DNA from: Flavobacteriia bacterium | GTDB taxonomy: Bacteria > Bacteroidota > Bacteroidia > Flavobacteriales > Flavobacteriaceae | Length of the DNA stretch: 64,000 nucleotides | Assembly: GCA_004293045.1 (NCBI GenBank) | Contig: RDXY01000005.1 | Location: 1-64,000 of the forward strand | Direction: 5' to 3' | Shown: positions 39,993-46,539 of the stretch, in pieces | Position numbering within the stretch: the first letter of the stretch is position 1 | How the letters are laid out: each line of letters begins with the position of its first letter | The notes under the pieces: model-generated | The model's database searches: none | The model's input: the letters and a program-made list of their open reading frames with translations, nothing else | Told to the model about the DNA's origin: nothing | Program-made: the position numbers and the translations under genes

Positions 39993-42095
39993 CTATTTCA
40001 AACTTTGATAAGCAATTAGTGCAACCAAATAAGCAAATCCGCTCATAAAAACCAATTGAATAATTGGCCATTTCCACGAGTTGGTTTCTTTTTTTACAAT
40101 AGCAAGTGTACTTACACATTGCATAGCAAAAGCATAAAATAAGAGCAATGAAATTCCGGTTGCGAAATTAAATATCTTATTTCCTTTAGCATCAATGTCT
40201 TCTGCCATTTTCATTTTTATTGTAGCTTCTTCTTCGCTCTGATTTCCTACACTATATATGGTGGCAAGTGTTCCCACAAATACTTCTCTAGCGGCAAATG
40301 AACTTACTACTGCAATTCCAATTTTCCAATCGTAACCTAATGGTTTTATAGCGGGTTCAATGGTTTTACCCATAATTCCGATATAAGAATTTTCTAATTT
40401 GTAGGCAGAAACATTATTTTCAATCACAGAAGGATTTATTTTATGGTGGCTTGAATAGACTTCTTTTTCAACGATTTCTTGCGCGTTATTAAAATTGTCT
40501 CCAGGTCCGTGTGATCCTAAAAACCAAAGAATTACTGATAAAGCTAAAATTATTTTTCCAGCCCCTGTTACAAACGCTTTGGTTTTTTCAAGAACATTTA
40601 GGGCTACATTTTTTAAAAGCGGCACTTTATAACTCGGCATTTCAACAATAAAATACGATTTGCATTTTAATTTTAGTGCCTTATTTAGCAAATATGCCGA
40701 GCCAATTGCTACCACAAAAGCCAATAAATACAATGCCATTAAAGTTAAACCTTGTAAACTGAAACCTAAAAACCGTTTTTCTGGAATAATTAATGAAATT
40801 AATATGGCGTAAACTGGTAAGCGTGCAGAACAAGTAATAAAAGGTGTGATTAAAATTGTAATTAAACGTTCTTTCCAATTTTCAATATTTCGAGCACTCA
40901 TTATGGCAGGAATAGCACAAGCCGTTCCAGAAATTAAAGGCACAATACTTTTTCCGGACAAGCCGAATTTTCGCATAATTTTATCCATTAAAAATACAAC
41001 ACGACTCATATAGCCGCTTTCTTCTAAAACAGAAATAAACAAGAACAAAAAGGCAATTTGCGGAATAAAAATGATAATGCCTCCAATTCCGGGAATGATT
41101 CCATCAGAAAGTAAATCCGTAAATTTTCCTTTAGGAAGACTTTCTTTAGTTAACGCACTAAATTTTGAAAAAGTAGTATCTATAAAATCCATTGGAATGC
41201 TACTCCAATCGAAAATAGATTGAAAGATAAGTAATAATATTCCGAAGAAAATTAAATACCCAAAGACTTTGTGTGTTAAAATATTATCCAATTTACTTTG
41301 AAAATCTGTGGCTTTAGATTTGTCAATTTTTTGGGTAATTTTCAACGTATCATTAATAAATTGATACCTTTTTATGGTTTCTTTTTGTTGCAGTTTTTTT
41401 AAATCAGAGTGCGATCGGGTAAAATTATTTTCAATTGCATTTCGTTCTAAATTTAAGAAATTAACATCTTGTGTAATTACCAACCATAATTTGTAAAGCA
41501 ACTGATTTGGAAATGCTTTTTTAAGACGATTAAAATATTCTTCATCTATAGAACTGGCATTTAAACAAGCTTCTGTAGATAGATTTTTATAATTTAGAAT
41601 TAATTCTTTTATATACTCCATTCCAATATTTTTTCTGGAACTTATTAAGGCAATTTTAGTTTTTAATTCGGTTTCGAGCAACGGAATGTTTAATTCAATT
41701 CCTTTTTGTTTCATTCGGTCACTCATATTTATTACAAGCAACGTGGGAATTTCTAAGTCTTTTATTTGTGTGAAAAGTAATAAATTTCGTTTTAAATTTT
41801 CTACTTCTGTAACCACCACAGCTACATCTGGAAAATCTTCATCGTTTTTATTTAATAGTAATTCAATTACTACATTTTCATCAATTGAATTCGCATTTAA
41901 ACTGTACGTCCCTGGTAAATCTATAATTTTAGCTTTCGTAATTTGATTGAGTTTACAAATGCCTGATTTTTTATCCACAGTAATTCCAGGATAATTTCCC
42001 ACTTGCTGATTTAATCCTGTTAACTGATTAAAAACAGAAGTTTTACCCACATTTGGATTCCCTATTAACGCAACTTTTATGGTATTAGAATACAT
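39993..42095 (-). CDS. feoB: Ferrous iron transporter FeoB
   Basis: The 700-residue protein couples an N-terminal GTPase to a ferrous iron channel in the cytoplasmic membrane. The G1 motif is IGNPNVGKTSVFNQL, G3 is IDLPGTYSL, and G4 NMSD is at about residue 123. Two Gate domains and Nramp-like helices follow from about residue 280, including SGTACAIPAIMSAR with the channel Cys. Length is typical. The start follows the feoA stop immediately, which makes a feoA-feoB operon together with the 41-residue peptide. Confidence 0.96.
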   Translation of the reverse strand: MYSNTIKVALIGNPNVGKTSVFNQLTGLNQQVGNYPGITVDKKSGICKLNQITKAKIIDLPGTYSLNANSIDENVVIELLLNKNDEDFPDVAVVVTEVENLKRNLLLFTQIKDLEIPTLLVINMSDRMKQKGIELNIPLLETELKTKIALISSRKNIGMEYIKELILNYKNLSTEACLNASSIDEEYFNRLKKAFPNQLLYKLWLVITQDVNFLNLERNAIENNFTRSHSDLKKLQQKETIKRYQFINDTLKITQKIDKSKATDFQSKLDNILTHKVFGYLIFFGILLLIFQSIFDWSSIPMDFIDTTFSKFSALTKESLPKGKFTDLLSDGIIPGIGGIIIFIPQIAFLFLFISVLEESGYMSRVVFLMDKIMRKFGLSGKSIVPLISGTACAIPAIMSARNIENWKERLITILITPFITCSARLPVYAILISLIIPEKRFLGFSLQGLTLMALYLLAFVVAIGSAYLLNKALKLKCKSYFIVEMPSYKVPLLKNVALNVLEKTKAFVTGAGKIILALSVILWFLGSHGPGDNFNNAQEIVEKEVYSSHHKINPSVIENNVSAYKLENSYIGIMGKTIEPAIKPLGYDWKIGIAVVSSFAAREVFVGTLATIYSVGNQSEEEATIKMKMAEDIDAKGNKIFNFATGISLLLFYAFAMQCVSTLAIVKKETNSWKWPIIQLVFMSGFAYLVALIAYQSLK

Positions 42096-42335
42096 TTATT
42101 GAATAGATTCTTGTAAAATATAGATTTCTTGAGCGGTTTTTTTTCTAATAGCTACTTTCGCGTCGTTTATATTAAAAAATAAAGGATCACCCATTGGTGC
42201 CACCTGAATTAATTCGATAGTATTACCTGGTAAACATCCCATTTCAATAAGTTTCAATGGAATTTCATCGATATTAATATCTGAAATTTGAGCCATTTGC
42301 CCCTTTTTCAATACAGTAGCATTACTATTTTTCAC
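42096..42335 (-). CDS. feoA: FeoA small SH3-like protein
   Basis: The 79-residue cytosolic protein has the FeoA SH3-like fold, with LIEMGCLPGNTIELIQVAPMGDP at the centre (the GxxPGxxVxV signature) and IRKKTAQEIYI at the end. It aids FeoB activity. The best start is GTG at 42335 because no ATG exists upstream in frame, and the length then fits the family. A -7 element and a dyad-like sequence lie between that start and 42369. Its stop codon abuts feoB. Confidence 0.93.
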   Translation of the reverse strand: MKNSNATVLKKGQMAQISDINIDEIPLKLIEMGCLPGNTIELIQVAPMGDPLFFNINDAKVAIRKKTAQEIYILQESIQ

Positions 42336-42343
42336 AAACTTAT

Positions 42344-42360
42344 TTAGATTGAATTAAAAT
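42344..42360. promoter_or_regulatory. Possible DtxR-type site before feoA
   Basis: TTTAGATTGAATTAAAA agrees with the core of the dyad at 37394-37415 (TTTAGATTTGTCTAAAA) at 13 of 17 positions. It lies between the -7 element and the feoA start, a place where a bound repressor would block transcription. Confidence 0.4.
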
Positions 42361-42361
42361 A

Positions 42362-42369
42362 CAAAGATA
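42362..42369 (-). promoter_or_regulatory. -7 element for feoA (TATCTTTG)
   Basis: TATCTTTG on the minus strand matches TAnnTTTG, about 27 bases before the GTG start. Confidence 0.55.
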
Positions 42370-42459
42370 ACATATTCCGAAAACAAAAACCTAACAAATA
42401 TCCTGTTTTACAATTGAACTATTATTTGTATATTGGTAACCCTATTATAAAAGATATAA

Positions 42460-43197
42460 ATGAGCAGAACACTAGTTATTGGCGACATACATGGCGGATT
42501 AAAAGCCTTACTTCAAGTACTACAAAAAGCAGCAATAAAACAGAATGATATTTTAATATTTTTAGGCGATTATGTAGACGGTTGGAGCGAATCGCCAGGC
42601 GTTTTAGAGTATTTAATTGCTTTATCGGAGCAACAAAAATGTATTTTCTTAAGAGGAAATCATGACGAATTGCTTTTAGATTGGTTAGAAAACCGACATG
42701 AAAATATAAAAGAAGAACTATGGTTTAAGCATGGAGGAAAGGCCACTGTTGATGCGTATTTAACTGTTTCAGAAACGGAGAAACAAAAACACATTGCCTT
42801 TTTGAAATCCTTACGAAATTATTATTTAGATGCCGAAAACAGATTATTTGTGCATGCCGGTTTTACAAATATGAATGGCGTTTCACAGGAGTTTTTTCCT
42901 AAATTATTGTATTGGGACAGAACGCTTTGGGAAGTAGCTTTGTGTTTGGATGAAAATAAGGATAAAAATTCTCCAGAATATCCCAAAAGATTAAAAATTT
43001 ATTCTGAAATATTTATCGGACATACGCCAATTTCTAAAACGGAAATAGTCGCGCCGCTTTGTAAAAATTCTGTTTGGAATTTAGATACTGGCGCCGCTTT
43101 TTCAGGCGTGTTAACCATTATGGATTGTGCTTCTAAAATGTACTGGCAAAGTGATAAATTGCGAGAGTTATATCCAAACGAAATAGGAAGAAATTAA
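42460..43197 (+). CDS. Metallophosphoesterase (protein phosphatase-like)
   Basis: The 245-residue cytosolic enzyme has the calcineurin-like set in order: GDIHGGLKAL, FLGDYVDGW, LRGNHDELLLDWL, FVHAGF and IGHTPI. The spacing fits the bacterial PPP-type serine/threonine phosphatase or diadenosine tetraphosphatase group. The substrate is not determinable from the motifs. It is divergent from feoA and is followed after about 50 bases by a separately promoted PhnA-domain gene. Confidence 0.88.
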   Translation: MSRTLVIGDIHGGLKALLQVLQKAAIKQNDILIFLGDYVDGWSESPGVLEYLIALSEQQKCIFLRGNHDELLLDWLENRHENIKEELWFKHGGKATVDAYLTVSETEKQKHIAFLKSLRNYYLDAENRLFVHAGFTNMNGVSQEFFPKLLYWDRTLWEVALCLDENKDKNSPEYPKRLKIYSEIFIGHTPISKTEIVAPLCKNSVWNLDTGAAFSGVLTIMDCASKMYWQSDKLRELYPNEIGRN

Positions 43198-43201
43198 TTC
43201 T

Positions 43202-43209
43202 TATATTTG
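43202..43209 (+). promoter_or_regulatory. -7 element for the PhnA-domain gene (TATATTTG)
   Basis: TATATTTG lies just after the phosphoesterase stop and 41 bases before ATG 43251. Confidence 0.5.
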
Positions 43210-43250
43210 CCCAAAATTAGGAATAAATAACAGCCATAAAAACAGAAATA

Positions 43251-43826
43251 ATGAGTGTAATTGAAAGAAAATTAAAAGACAGAAGCGAGTCAAAATGTGA
43301 AATTAGTGGTGCCGAATTGGATTTAGTGGTGTACACGTTACCACCTTATACAGAAGAAAGTTTAGCACATTCGGTTTTATTGGCCAAGCATTTAAAAGAT
43401 CAAGTAGAAAACCCAGATACAATGAATCCAAATGATTGGAGAGGGTTGTCTGATAGTATGTGGAACGAAAATTTACCGGTTCAAATTCTTTCTTGGCGCA
43501 TGTTAGCACGTTTAAAAAATATCGATACATTAGAAATGATGTATTTAGACGAAGAAGCTTTAGCATGGGCAAAAGCAACAGGCGAAGGAGAAGAGGAAGA
43601 CGAAAATAAAATTGTGCATAAAGACAGCAACGGTGCCATTTTAAAAGATGGCGATTCTGTGGTTTTAATTAAAGATTTAGATGTGAAAGGTGCTACATTT
43701 ACTGCAAAACGAGGCGCAGCAGTTCACAATATTAAAGTGGTTTGGGACGATGCTAATTTAATTGAAGGTAGAGTAGAAAACCAACACATTTATATTTTAA
43801 CACAATACGTGAAGAAAACGAAGTAA
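43251..43826 (+). CDS. PhnA-domain protein
   Basis: The 191-residue cytosolic protein starts MSVIERKLKDRSESKCEISG and has, near its end, KDSNGAILKDGDSVVLIKDLDVKG (quoted in part), which matches the PhnA C-terminal domain. The N-terminal zinc-ribbon of classic PhnA is reduced to one Cys, and a helical middle section of about 80 residues is specific to flavobacterial versions. Despite the name, no direct role in phosphonate use is established. It has its own promoter and a terminator hairpin some 40 bases downstream. Confidence 0.85.
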   Translation: MSVIERKLKDRSESKCEISGAELDLVVYTLPPYTEESLAHSVLLAKHLKDQVENPDTMNPNDWRGLSDSMWNENLPVQILSWRMLARLKNIDTLEMMYLDEEALAWAKATGEGEEEDENKIVHKDSNGAILKDGDSVVLIKDLDVKGATFTAKRGAAVHNIKVVWDDANLIEGRVENQHIYILTQYVKKTK

Positions 43827-43848
43827 TTAGCCAATTAGCCGATATAGC
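43825..43848. repeat. Short octamer tract after the PhnA-domain gene
   Basis: AATTAGCC, AATTAGCC, GATATAGC in 8-base register, beginning in the stop codon. Only three units, so the call is weak. Confidence 0.4.
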
Positions 43849-43863
43849 AATGTGATACTAGAG

Positions 43864-43891
43864 AACCTGCAAGATTTTTGCGGGTTTTTTC
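43864..43891 (+). terminator. Terminator after the PhnA-domain gene
   Basis: AACCTGCAA and TTGCGGGTT pair with one G-T, followed by TTTTTT. Confidence 0.7.
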
Positions 43892-44005
43892 TTATACTTA
43901 AATAATATTTAATAGATTTGAAAAACTAAAAAACGAAACAAAACTTTTGCATAGCCACCAAAATACGGGTGTATATAAGATGTTCTATTTTGCACATATA
44001 TAGAA

Positions 44006-44019
44006 GTTAGTGGCAATTA
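44006..44019 (+). repeat. Left inverted repeat of the barrel-gene module
   Basis: GTTAGTGGCAATTA is the exact inverse of TAATTGCCACTAAC at 44857-44870. A shorter GCCAC at about 43957 can pair with it too, giving a folded site in front of the module. Confidence 0.65.
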
Positions 44020-44037
44020 ATCCTGATTAAGCTAAAA

Positions 44038-44859
44038 ATGAGTAAACTAAATTTGATAGTAGTAATTTTGATTTGCAATTTCATAAGTGCACAAAACAAA
44101 AGTAATGAACAAAACTTTAAACGAAATTCAATATCTATTGAGTTTTACAAACCTATCGAAAATTCTTTATCAGAATTTTATAATTTTAATTATGGATTTG
44201 GAAATTCAATTAACGGAATAAATAATTATTCAAAAAATAAACTTTCAAATTCTTTTGGAATAAGCTATGAAAGAATATGTATTAACAATATTATTTTCAG
44301 ACCTAGAATTGGACTTTCAAGAACAAAAACTAATGAAAATCAGTTCTCCGAAGAACTTGTAGCTAATCCAAAGAAATACACAAAGGAATACATATATAAA
44401 CAGAATAATTTAAATATTTTTGTTGGAATAGCAAAAAGGATTGACCTTACAAAAAAAATAAAATTGGATTTAGGATTAGATTTAGCTTCTATATATTATT
44501 CTAAAGGTAGTGGAAATTATAAATCTATTCAAACACAAAAAGATATAAATAATGGAGATACTTATAAACAAGAAATAAATATCATTAGCGAAATGGGAAA
44601 AGTTTATTCCTTTGGAATTGGTCCTTATTTTAAACCTGAAGTTTCAATATTTACAGATTTTACTTTGTCATTTGAAATGCAAGTTTATTTTTTAAGAACA
44701 ATATCTAGTGATCAGTCATTTCAAATAGAAATTAGTGACCAGTATACTAATGAGATAAATTTTGAACATAATGAATTAAAAACATTAATTAATAATAACT
44801 TTAAATTTTGGGAATGGACGAAAACATCACCACTCTTAAGATTGGGCTATAAATTCTAA
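44038..44859 (+). CDS. Outer-membrane beta-barrel protein in an inverted-repeat module
   Basis: The 273-residue product has a signal peptide (LNLIVVILICNFISAQ) and a strongly Asn/Lys-rich body with alternating strands such as NSFGISYERICINN and PLLRLGYKF at the end, typical of a porin-like barrel. I do not recognise a specific family. The gene is bounded by 14-base perfect inverted repeats, and its stop TAA lies within the right repeat. Codon use looks even more AT-biased than the neighbours. No transposase, integrase or second gene is inside. The arrangement looks like a single-gene cassette. Confidence 0.6.
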   Translation: MSKLNLIVVILICNFISAQNKSNEQNFKRNSISIEFYKPIENSLSEFYNFNYGFGNSINGINNYSKNKLSNSFGISYERICINNIIFRPRIGLSRTKTNENQFSEELVANPKKYTKEYIYKQNNLNIFVGIAKRIDLTKKIKLDLGLDLASIYYSKGSGNYKSIQTQKDINNGDTYKQEINIISEMGKVYSFGIGPYFKPEVSIFTDFTLSFEMQVYFLRTISSDQSFQIEISDQYTNEINFEHNELKTLINNNFKFWEWTKTSPLLRLGYKF

Positions 44860-44870
44860 TTGCCACTAAC
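44857..44870 (-). repeat. Right inverted repeat of the barrel-gene module
   Basis: TAATTGCCACTAAC, followed by CCCGATAGCGCGGAATTGC, a sequence type I recall as a repeated element downstream of flavobacterial genes. Confidence 0.65.
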
Positions 44871-44912
44871 CCCGATAGCGCGGAATTGCTTTCCATGCTC
44901 ACAAAGTAAAAT

Positions 44913-44946
44913 AAAAAACCCCTGCAAAAATTTCGCAGGGGTTTTT
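44913..44946. terminator. Terminator downstream of the aldehyde dehydrogenase gene
   Basis: AAAAACCCCTGC and GCAGGGGTTTTT form a GC-rich stem around an A/T loop, effective in both directions. Confidence 0.88.
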
Positions 44947-44985
44947 CTCTATCTTAAAAAGTGACAAATCACTTATTACTTAATG

Positions 44986-46539
44986 CTACAAATCGAACTT
45001 AATCCCTTGCGCTAATGGCAATTGATCCGAATAGTTTACGGTGTTGGTTTGTCTTCTCATATATACTTTCCAAGCGTCTGAACCCGATTCTCTTCCGCCG
45101 CCTGTTTCTTTTTCGCCTCCAAAAGCACCGCCGATTTCTGCACCAGAAGTTCCGATATTTACGTTAGCAATTCCACAATCCGAACCAGCGAAAGATAAAA
45201 ATTTCTCTGCTTCTTTGATGCTGTTTGTCATAATAGCAGAAGACAATCCTTGTGCTACACCATTTTGTTTTTCGATCGCATTTTCTACTTCGCCTTCGTA
45301 TTTCATTAGGTATAAAATTGGGGCAAACGTTTCGTGTTGTACAATTTCAAAATGATTTTCAGCTTCAATGATGGCCGGTTTTACATAGCATCCCGATTCG
45401 TATCCTTCACCTGATAAAACACCACCTTCTACTAATACGTTTCCGCCTTCAGCTTTTGCTTTTTCAATCGCTGCTAAATACGTGTTCACCGCATCTGTAT
45501 CAATAAGCGGTCCAATATGATTTTTTTGATCTAATGGATTTCCAATAGTTAATTGCCCGTAAGCACCCACAATGGCATCTCTTACTTTATCGTATACACT
45601 TTCGTGAATAATTAATCGTCTTGTAGAAGTACATCTTTGTCCAGCCGTTCCAACCGCTCCAAATACGGCTCCAGGAACTACTACTTTTAAATCGGCAGTT
45701 GGGGTAATAATAATGGCATTGTTTCCGCCTAATTCCAATAAAGATTTTCCGAAACGTTGCGCCACAGTAGTACCAACAATTCTTCCCATTCTAGTAGAAC
45801 CTGTAGCAGAAATTAAAGGAATTCTTACGTCAGTAGTCATCATTTCGCCTACTTTGTAATCGCCGTTAATGATACAAGAAATTCCTTCTGGTAACTCATT
45901 TTCTTTTAAAATAGCAGCAATAATATTCTGACAAGCAATAGAACATAAAGGTGCTTTTTCAGAAGCTTTCCACACACAAACGTCACCACAAATCCAAGCC
46001 AATGCGGTATTCCAAGCCCAAACGGCTACTGGAAAGTTAAAAGCAGAAATAATTCCTACTACTCCAATAGAATGCCATTGTTCTCTCATTACGTGCCCAG
46101 GACGTTCAGATGGAATGGTTTGTCCGTTCAATTGTCGAGATAAACCTACGGCGAAATCACAAATATCAATCATTTCTTGTACTTCACCATACCCTTCTTG
46201 TAACGATTTTCCCATTTCATAGGAAACTAATTTACCAAGCGGTTCTTTTAATTCTCTTAATTTATTTCCAAATTGTCTAACAATCTCACCACGTTGCGGC
46301 GCTGGCATAGCGCGAAACGATTTGAAAGCAGCTGTAGCACTTTGCATTACTTTTTCGTAATCTGCTGCAGTGGTGGTTTTTACTTTTCCAATTAATTGTC
46401 CATCAACTGGTGAATAACTTTCAATGATATCTCCAGAAGAAAAACAATTAGAACCTGTTGAGGTTCCGTCATTAATTTCTTTTATTCCTAGTGCTTTTAA
46501 GGCTTCAGGCATTCCAAATTGTGAGGCTATTGTTGACAT
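44986..46539 (-). CDS. amaB: 2-Aminoadipate semialdehyde dehydrogenase (ALDH7 type)
   Basis: The 517-residue NAD-dependent dehydrogenase resembles antiquitin/AmaB, which oxidises 2-aminoadipate semialdehyde (in equilibrium with piperideine-6-carboxylate) in lysine breakdown. Active-site Cys lies in GTAGQRCTSTRRLI, the general base in SLLELGGNNAI, and the family-specific start is EALKALGIKE. Length matches ALDH7. A saccharopine dehydrogenase family gene 39 kb away might supply the semialdehyde. The next gene upstream belongs to tryptophan/kynurenine breakdown, so general amino-acid catabolism is the theme. Confidence 0.88.
   Translation of the reverse strand: MSTIASQFGMPEALKALGIKEINDGTSTGSNCFSSGDIIESYSPVDGQLIGKVKTTTAADYEKVMQSATAAFKSFRAMPAPQRGEIVRQFGNKLRELKEPLGKLVSYEMGKSLQEGYGEVQEMIDICDFAVGLSRQLNGQTIPSERPGHVMREQWHSIGVVGIISAFNFPVAVWAWNTALAWICGDVCVWKASEKAPLCSIACQNIIAAILKENELPEGISCIINGDYKVGEMMTTDVRIPLISATGSTRMGRIVGTTVAQRFGKSLLELGGNNAIIITPTADLKVVVPGAVFGAVGTAGQRCTSTRRLIIHESVYDKVRDAIVGAYGQLTIGNPLDQKNHIGPLIDTDAVNTYLAAIEKAKAEGGNVLVEGGVLSGEGYESGCYVKPAIIEAENHFEIVQHETFAPILYLMKYEGEVENAIEKQNGVAQGLSSAIMTNSIKEAEKFLSFAGSDCGIANVNIGTSGAEIGGAFGGEKETGGGRESGSDAWKVYMRRQTNTVNYSDQLPLAQGIKFDL

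Follow-up and report, generated by a model that had tools for sequence, protein, structure and literature searches.

Why a single gene for a predicted outer-membrane barrel should stand between two perfect 14-base inverted repeats is the question raised by positions 44006 to 44870 of the stretch of DNA analysed here, 64,000 nucleotides long and referred to below as the window (contig C50 of a 1.68-Mb genome, 75.6% complete). We conclude that the segment 43899-44870 is very probably an integron attI site standing away from any integrase gene, a stray attI, into which one gene cassette has been inserted.

The locus and its relatives

The locus is composed of the following features.

43251..43826, + strand: PhnA (YjdM)-domain gene, upstream (Pfam PF03831, E 1.4e-24)
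about 43865-43892: terminator of the PhnA gene
43899..44005, + strand: attI without an adjacent integrase gene (attI HMM, covariance model, identity to the G189 attI)
43913..43920, + strand: TAGATTTG, which matches the TAnnTTTG -7 element of Bacteroidota promoters (alignments)
43954..43971, + strand: GCCACC...GGGTG inverted repeat inside attI, equivalent to CCACCCAAATTTGGGTG in platform attIs
44006..44019, + strand: R' end of the cassette, GTTAGTGGCA followed by A (the mismatch position) and TTA
44038..44859, + strand: cassette gene, encoding a 273-aa predicted outer-membrane beta-barrel with signal peptide (ORF; structure prediction)
44857..44870, + strand: R'' end of the cassette, TAA-T-TGCCACTAAC
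44871..44898, + strand: REP-like hairpin CCCGATAGCGCGGAATTGCTTTCCATGC, in the place of the expected remaining attC of about 125 bp
44914-44946: terminator of the aldehyde dehydrogenase gene (hairpin I7)
44986..46539, - strand: aldehyde dehydrogenase gene, downstream and convergent (Pfam PF00171)

The initial annotation had proposed to compare the gap between amaB and the PhnA-domain gene across strains, and this gap is short and empty in four relatives (G198, G190, G171 and G163), where the PhnA and aldehyde dehydrogenase genes lie about 115-140 bp apart and the cassette is absent. Since the flanking genes are adjacent in these genomes, the segment is an insertion in the lineage of the window. 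In G189, which the dehydrogenase (98%) marks as the closest relative, different genes occupy the corresponding place, so the exact insertion junction is unreadable. The GC content of the cassette is 24%, against 36-39% in the neighbouring genes. An inverted similarity between 43882-43899 and 44904-44921, which involves the two terminators, was also considered and judged to be ordinary terminator similarity.

The inverted repeats and the gene between them

The left repeat, GTTAGTGGCAATTA at 44006-44019 (+), has its exact reverse complement, TAATTGCCACTAAC, at 44857-44870, and the right-hand copy contains the stop codon (44857-44859), just as had been described from the sequence at the outset. 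Judged by length alone the repeat is not significant, as its frequency in the window is that expected by chance: six perfect 14-bp inverted repeats spanning 250-2600 bp were seen, against 7.05 expected from Markov shuffles of this AT-rich window. A 14-bp pair that starts with GTT and holds at least five G/C was found in 0 of 60 shuffles. The full 14-mer pair occurs once in its own genome, other near matches are scattered singly, and the genome search returned no second exact or near pair. Similar pairs around other genes, for which a search had been suggested, are absent from this genome as exact copies; their equivalents are the R' and R'' ends that array cassettes of the genus carry (see below). 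An Rfam search returned nothing above the gathering score.

The enclosed gene (GC 23.7%) has no Pfam match. An AlphaFold2 model of its product (mean pLDDT 76.6) shows a signal helix followed by nearly all strands, the best PDB matches to the predicted structure are outer-membrane barrels at low TM-score, and the product is predicted to be a beta-barrel. Searching the contigs of the genome with the barrel protein gave no match. Among 400 genomes of the genus homologues occur in six others, five of them nearly full-length, with 32-43% identity. The homologue of G512 (28-32% identity) lies inside a genuine cassette, between folding sites with AAC/GTT boxes, and the other four near-full-length homologues directly follow uvrB. 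At these uvrB loci (L088, L089, L090 and L091, in G268, G297, G502 and G332) the barrel gene is immediately 3' of uvrB, and at L088, L090 and L091 part of the uvrB 3' end is repeated after it, as though these genes had come in by a different route in which the end of uvrB is duplicated.

The left flank is homologous to attI

The attI HMM, which was built without the window, matches 43901-44014 with an E-value of 6e-13, and this is the sole significant place in the 64 kb; the next match has E 0.067 and the best match in the reversed window 1.3. The match ends within the repeat, at the R' box. The covariance model R2 scores the window attI at 68 bits (E 2e-8), and in an alignment of 115 positions the left flank shares 71% identity with the attI that adjoins the integrase of G189. 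By both models, the left flank is homologous to integrase-adjacent attIs and ends at G|TT, where the crossover at the R' end would be placed.

From the integrase stop codon to the first cassette, the attI family comprises a TAnnTTTG-like motif, a CCACCCAAATTTGGGTG-like repeat and then TATAxACAA|GTT, the first of these being mostly conserved among attI sequences. This -7-like motif, represented in the window by TAGATTTG, may have a promoter role. The cassette gene had been called promoterless-looking, which it need not be if the flavobacterial motif in attI is used, and its transcription from an attI promoter is possible. The second GCCAC that had been noticed before the left repeat is present, at 43954-43958; it belongs to attI, and the attI models together with the identity to G189 replace the folded site seen there by an attI, with no second attC. 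No trace of an integrase was found by tblastn in 40001-46000, and the integrase of this genome is located on another contig than the window.

An integron-like platform in Flavobacterium

A tyrosine recombinase, which the initial annotation had advised looking for, is present in the genome together with an attI (contig C4). Each of the eight genomes first examined encodes such a recombinase of about 347-350 aa as its best match to the integron-integrase family. In relatives within the genus the gene is directly followed by an attI of about 115 bp and by long arrays of single genes separated by folding sites of about 137 bp. In G268 and G297 the arrays directly follow the recombinase, with one such site per single gene. 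Covariation in these sites is strong, 11 of 17 consensus pairs showing pair-keeping changes on both sides. A generic attC scan by simple complementarity performed no better than the reversed control in most loci. A model derived from real sites took its place and counts 70 sites in G268, 51 in G297 and 14 (E<=0.01) in the window's own genome, two of the latter beside the recombinase on contig C4.

The recombinase passes NCBIfam NF040815 ('site-specific tyrosine recombinase/integron integrase'). It aligns to TIGR02249 in two pieces only (3-179 and 239-315) and falls short of the 265-bit cut-off, and residues 178-245 of VchIntI (2a3v), which hold the IntI-specific insertion, remain unaligned to it; the additional domain of IntI-type integrases is therefore missing from the platform. 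At E<=1e-50 the recombinase is found in 179 of 300 genomes of the genus, and the named public genomes that carry it include F. cucumis, F. psychrophilum, F. saccharophilum and many others. The attI lies right after the integrase at 67 of 71 usable named loci, or at 69 when two matches that start a few bases before the stop codon are included, and also on contig C4 of the own genome. All attC matches at the named loci (121 of 121) are on the strand of the integrase. At L115 (9735-10778) and in its homologues, the recombinase has a conserved N-terminal extension of about 70 aa beyond the Pfam and NCBIfam matches.

The cassette ends follow a common rule

In 107 of 108 array cassettes, drawn from G268, G297, G188, G512 and the own genome, R' (GTT plus 6-7 nt) is complementary to the R'' of its own gene over 9-10 nt; the two ends of a single linear site, by comparison, have a median of 4 paired nt. 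Such pairing is expected if each cassette was once a circle with its one site cut between G and TT. When 98 of the 108 cassettes were counted again, 97 showed pairing over 9-10 nt; in all 72 cases with ten paired nucleotides A stands opposite C at the eleventh position, and the next four positions beyond the mismatch hold 3.5 matches on average over the 97 cassettes. The rule would be a footprint of cassette recombination by the integrase.

In the window, matching R' and R'' ends enclose one gene, with one base changed at the mismatch: R'' has T at the position where array cassettes have C. This change from C to T on the right-hand side yields 10 + 1 + 3 = 14 perfect pairs. The R boxes of the window, GCCACTAAC/GTTAGTGGC, recur unchanged in array sites of G268 and G188, and a stray attI of G185 has them too.

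The window cassette has no attC beyond R''

A complete attC does not follow the gene. Model R1 finds no attC match in the window, and of the site only R'' is left, with nothing of attC after it. The sequence beyond R'', CCCGATAGCGCGG, had been described as recurrent in flavobacteria, and it is a REP-like hairpin repeated at other flavobacterial loci; this 28-bp hairpin also stands at unrelated positions in other genomes, and matches to the right flank in relatives proved to be REP copies or coding sequence and nothing else. A decayed attC at another stray attI (L237, in G201) is likewise followed by this hairpin, and the cassettes at the stray attIs L226, L228 and L234 have truncated sites as well. 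The right folded site of the initial annotation is thus broken, its attC having gone beyond R'' and an unrelated REP hairpin standing instead. The likeness to gene cassettes that had been seen in the layout as a whole survives in the ends, which match those of array cassettes, and in the homologue from the G512 cassette; it does not extend to a pair of folded sites, the left one being attI. The window cassette would no longer be excisable, and as the window has no attC and its repeat lacks the usual mismatch, we make no claim of mobility.

Stray attIs across the genus

At least one attI match is present in 214 of 300 genomes of the genus, with up to at least 12 per genome, these counts being lower bounds as 12 were scored per genome. 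Of the best 150 attI matches in the 300 genomes, 38 follow an integrase and 112 have no adjacent integrase among the matches listed, a number that could include sites beside integrases weaker than E 1e-50 or outside those matches. With 112 of 150 in this position, stray attIs are, on sequence grounds, a habit of the whole genus. When 19 of the 112 loci were inspected, one proved to lie at the edge of its contig, at two others tblastn detected 24-44 remaining residues of the integrase end, and the remainder have no integrase gene upstream. The last integrase codons are kept just upstream of the stray attI at several loci, clearly at L212, L220, L223 and L229, which suggests that some stray attIs are the remains of deleted platforms. 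Other copies may have arisen by attI moving along with a cassette.

In the own genome, a cassette on contig C21 starts after an attI-like end. Also in this genome, at L169 (G000:C44, 3729-10326), an attI stands immediately after thyA, and the stretch from thyA to folA holds an array with three attC sites. Away from the main array of G268 (L174 and L175), three cassette starts have a different left module in common, GATGGGGATTGGTTGGTGGTGGGAAATTGGTTAAATTTG, which may be a second type of attI. At L212, L214, L217 and L218, the cassettes at stray attIs are followed by a second attC family (AACAGCCACTACAACGGATTTGGGCAATTGGC...), which model R1 mostly missed or scored low.

Origin of the insertion

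We propose that a Flavobacterium integron-like system, made up of the tyrosine recombinase, attI and arrays with attC sites of about 137 bp, captures genes, and that integrase-free copies of attI scattered over the chromosome hold cassettes of their own. The barrel-gene cassette would have entered such a copy by recombination at G|TT (44006), with the recombinase acting in trans from elsewhere in the chromosome. Afterwards the attC beyond R'' would have been lost and the mismatch base changed from C to T, the loss of attC probably locking the cassette in place. On a wider scale, we consider it reasonably probable that the genus has a distributed integron, in which one integrase without the IntI-specific domain serves many chromosomal attI docking sites, each receiving and expressing its own cassettes beside different host genes, the window being one such site with its cassette fixed. 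Counted against the proposal are the lack of the classical IntI insertion in the recombinase and the absence of the exact 14-mer pair from the rest of the genome.

The stray attI itself may have had another origin, as the relic of a second complete integron whose integrase, between PhnA and attI, was deleted and whose array shrank to one cassette. We regard this tentatively as a possible sub-variant of the preferred explanation, from which it differs in the origin of the stray attI. The integrase codons that persist upstream of several stray attIs speak for it; at this locus, however, tblastn detects no integrase trace, no convincing tail precedes attI, and where the same two genes are neighbours in relatives, the gap between them is short and empty, with no platform. 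A cassette could also have been inserted at a chance secondary site (attG) and not at an attI, since attG insertion requires only a G|TT-like triplet. Such insertions are described for known integrons (cited in PMC12901181 and PMC11023631), but the left flank here matches attI over its full length, at an E-value far beyond what the few bases shared by attG would give, which makes an attG very unlikely.

One gene flanked by a perfect inverted repeat also recalls a transposon-like unit, either a MITE or a passenger element, with 14-bp terminal inverted repeats. No transposase ORF lies nearby, as had been stated initially, there is no target duplication, the genome holds no other copies of the ends, the ends obey the rule for cassettes, and attI forms the outer flank on the left; this reading, which we rate as extremely improbable, was dropped with neither duplication nor transposase to support it. 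It is scarcely credible, too, that a chance repeat surrounds an ordinary horizontally acquired gene. About 7 such 14-bp repeats are expected per window, yet this one has GTT/AAC ends at the attI crossover, an R box common to real cassettes and a homologue of its gene in a real cassette, and two independent attI models speak against chance.

Comparison with known integrons

The flavobacterial system resembles the chromosomal integrons of Vibrio, Xanthomonas and Treponema in its tyrosine recombinase, its adjoining attI with a G|TT junction, its long single-gene arrays, its folding attC sites with AAC/GTT boxes and its cassette ends, which match when circular. The integrase of the Treponema integron is co-directional with the array, as in the flavobacterial system (PMC3607928). 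Unlike these integrons, the flavobacterial recombinase lacks TIGR02249 positions of about 180-237 and has an N-terminal extension of about 70 aa, and the attC, at about 137 bp, forms a family of its own. To judge from its parts, the system works like an integron; strictly, the platform lacks the IntI-specific domain and the window lacks attC and integrase. The window shares with CALIN elements (at least two attC, no integrase) the position of a cassette away from an integrase, but it has an attI and no attC and falls outside that class. Cassettes inserted at attG (Loot et al. 2024, as cited in PMC12901181) also lie outside an integron, whereas the receiving site in the window is a full attI homologue of about 107 bp. 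In the Delta-attI-type cassettes of class 1 integrons (PMC12901181) displaced attI material likewise accompanies single genes; there attI is downstream in the place of attC, whereas in the window it is upstream as a docking site.

Bacteroidota are listed among the integron-bearing phyla in reviews (PMC8618304), and IntegronFinder 2.0 reported a single complete integron in Bacteroidetes proper, that of Salinibacter (PMC9024848). Our literature search, with subscription papers and preprints outside its scope, returned no account of a flavobacterial integron system, and an integron-like gene-capture system of Flavobacterium appears to have been overlooked so far, perhaps due to the missing IntI insertion, which is a detection feature. 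An active system would mean that a large machinery for gene capture has been missed in a phylum very common in water and soil, and the scattered attIs, if truly docking sites, would turn the integron from one array into a genome-wide insertion network.

In the paired cassette ends from the arrays of G268, G297, G512 and the own genome, position 11 holds the fixed A/C mismatch, or else position 10 is mismatched. In known attC sites extrahelical bases set the choice of strand, and the fixed flavobacterial mismatch, which is reminiscent of these, offers a testable handle on strand choice.
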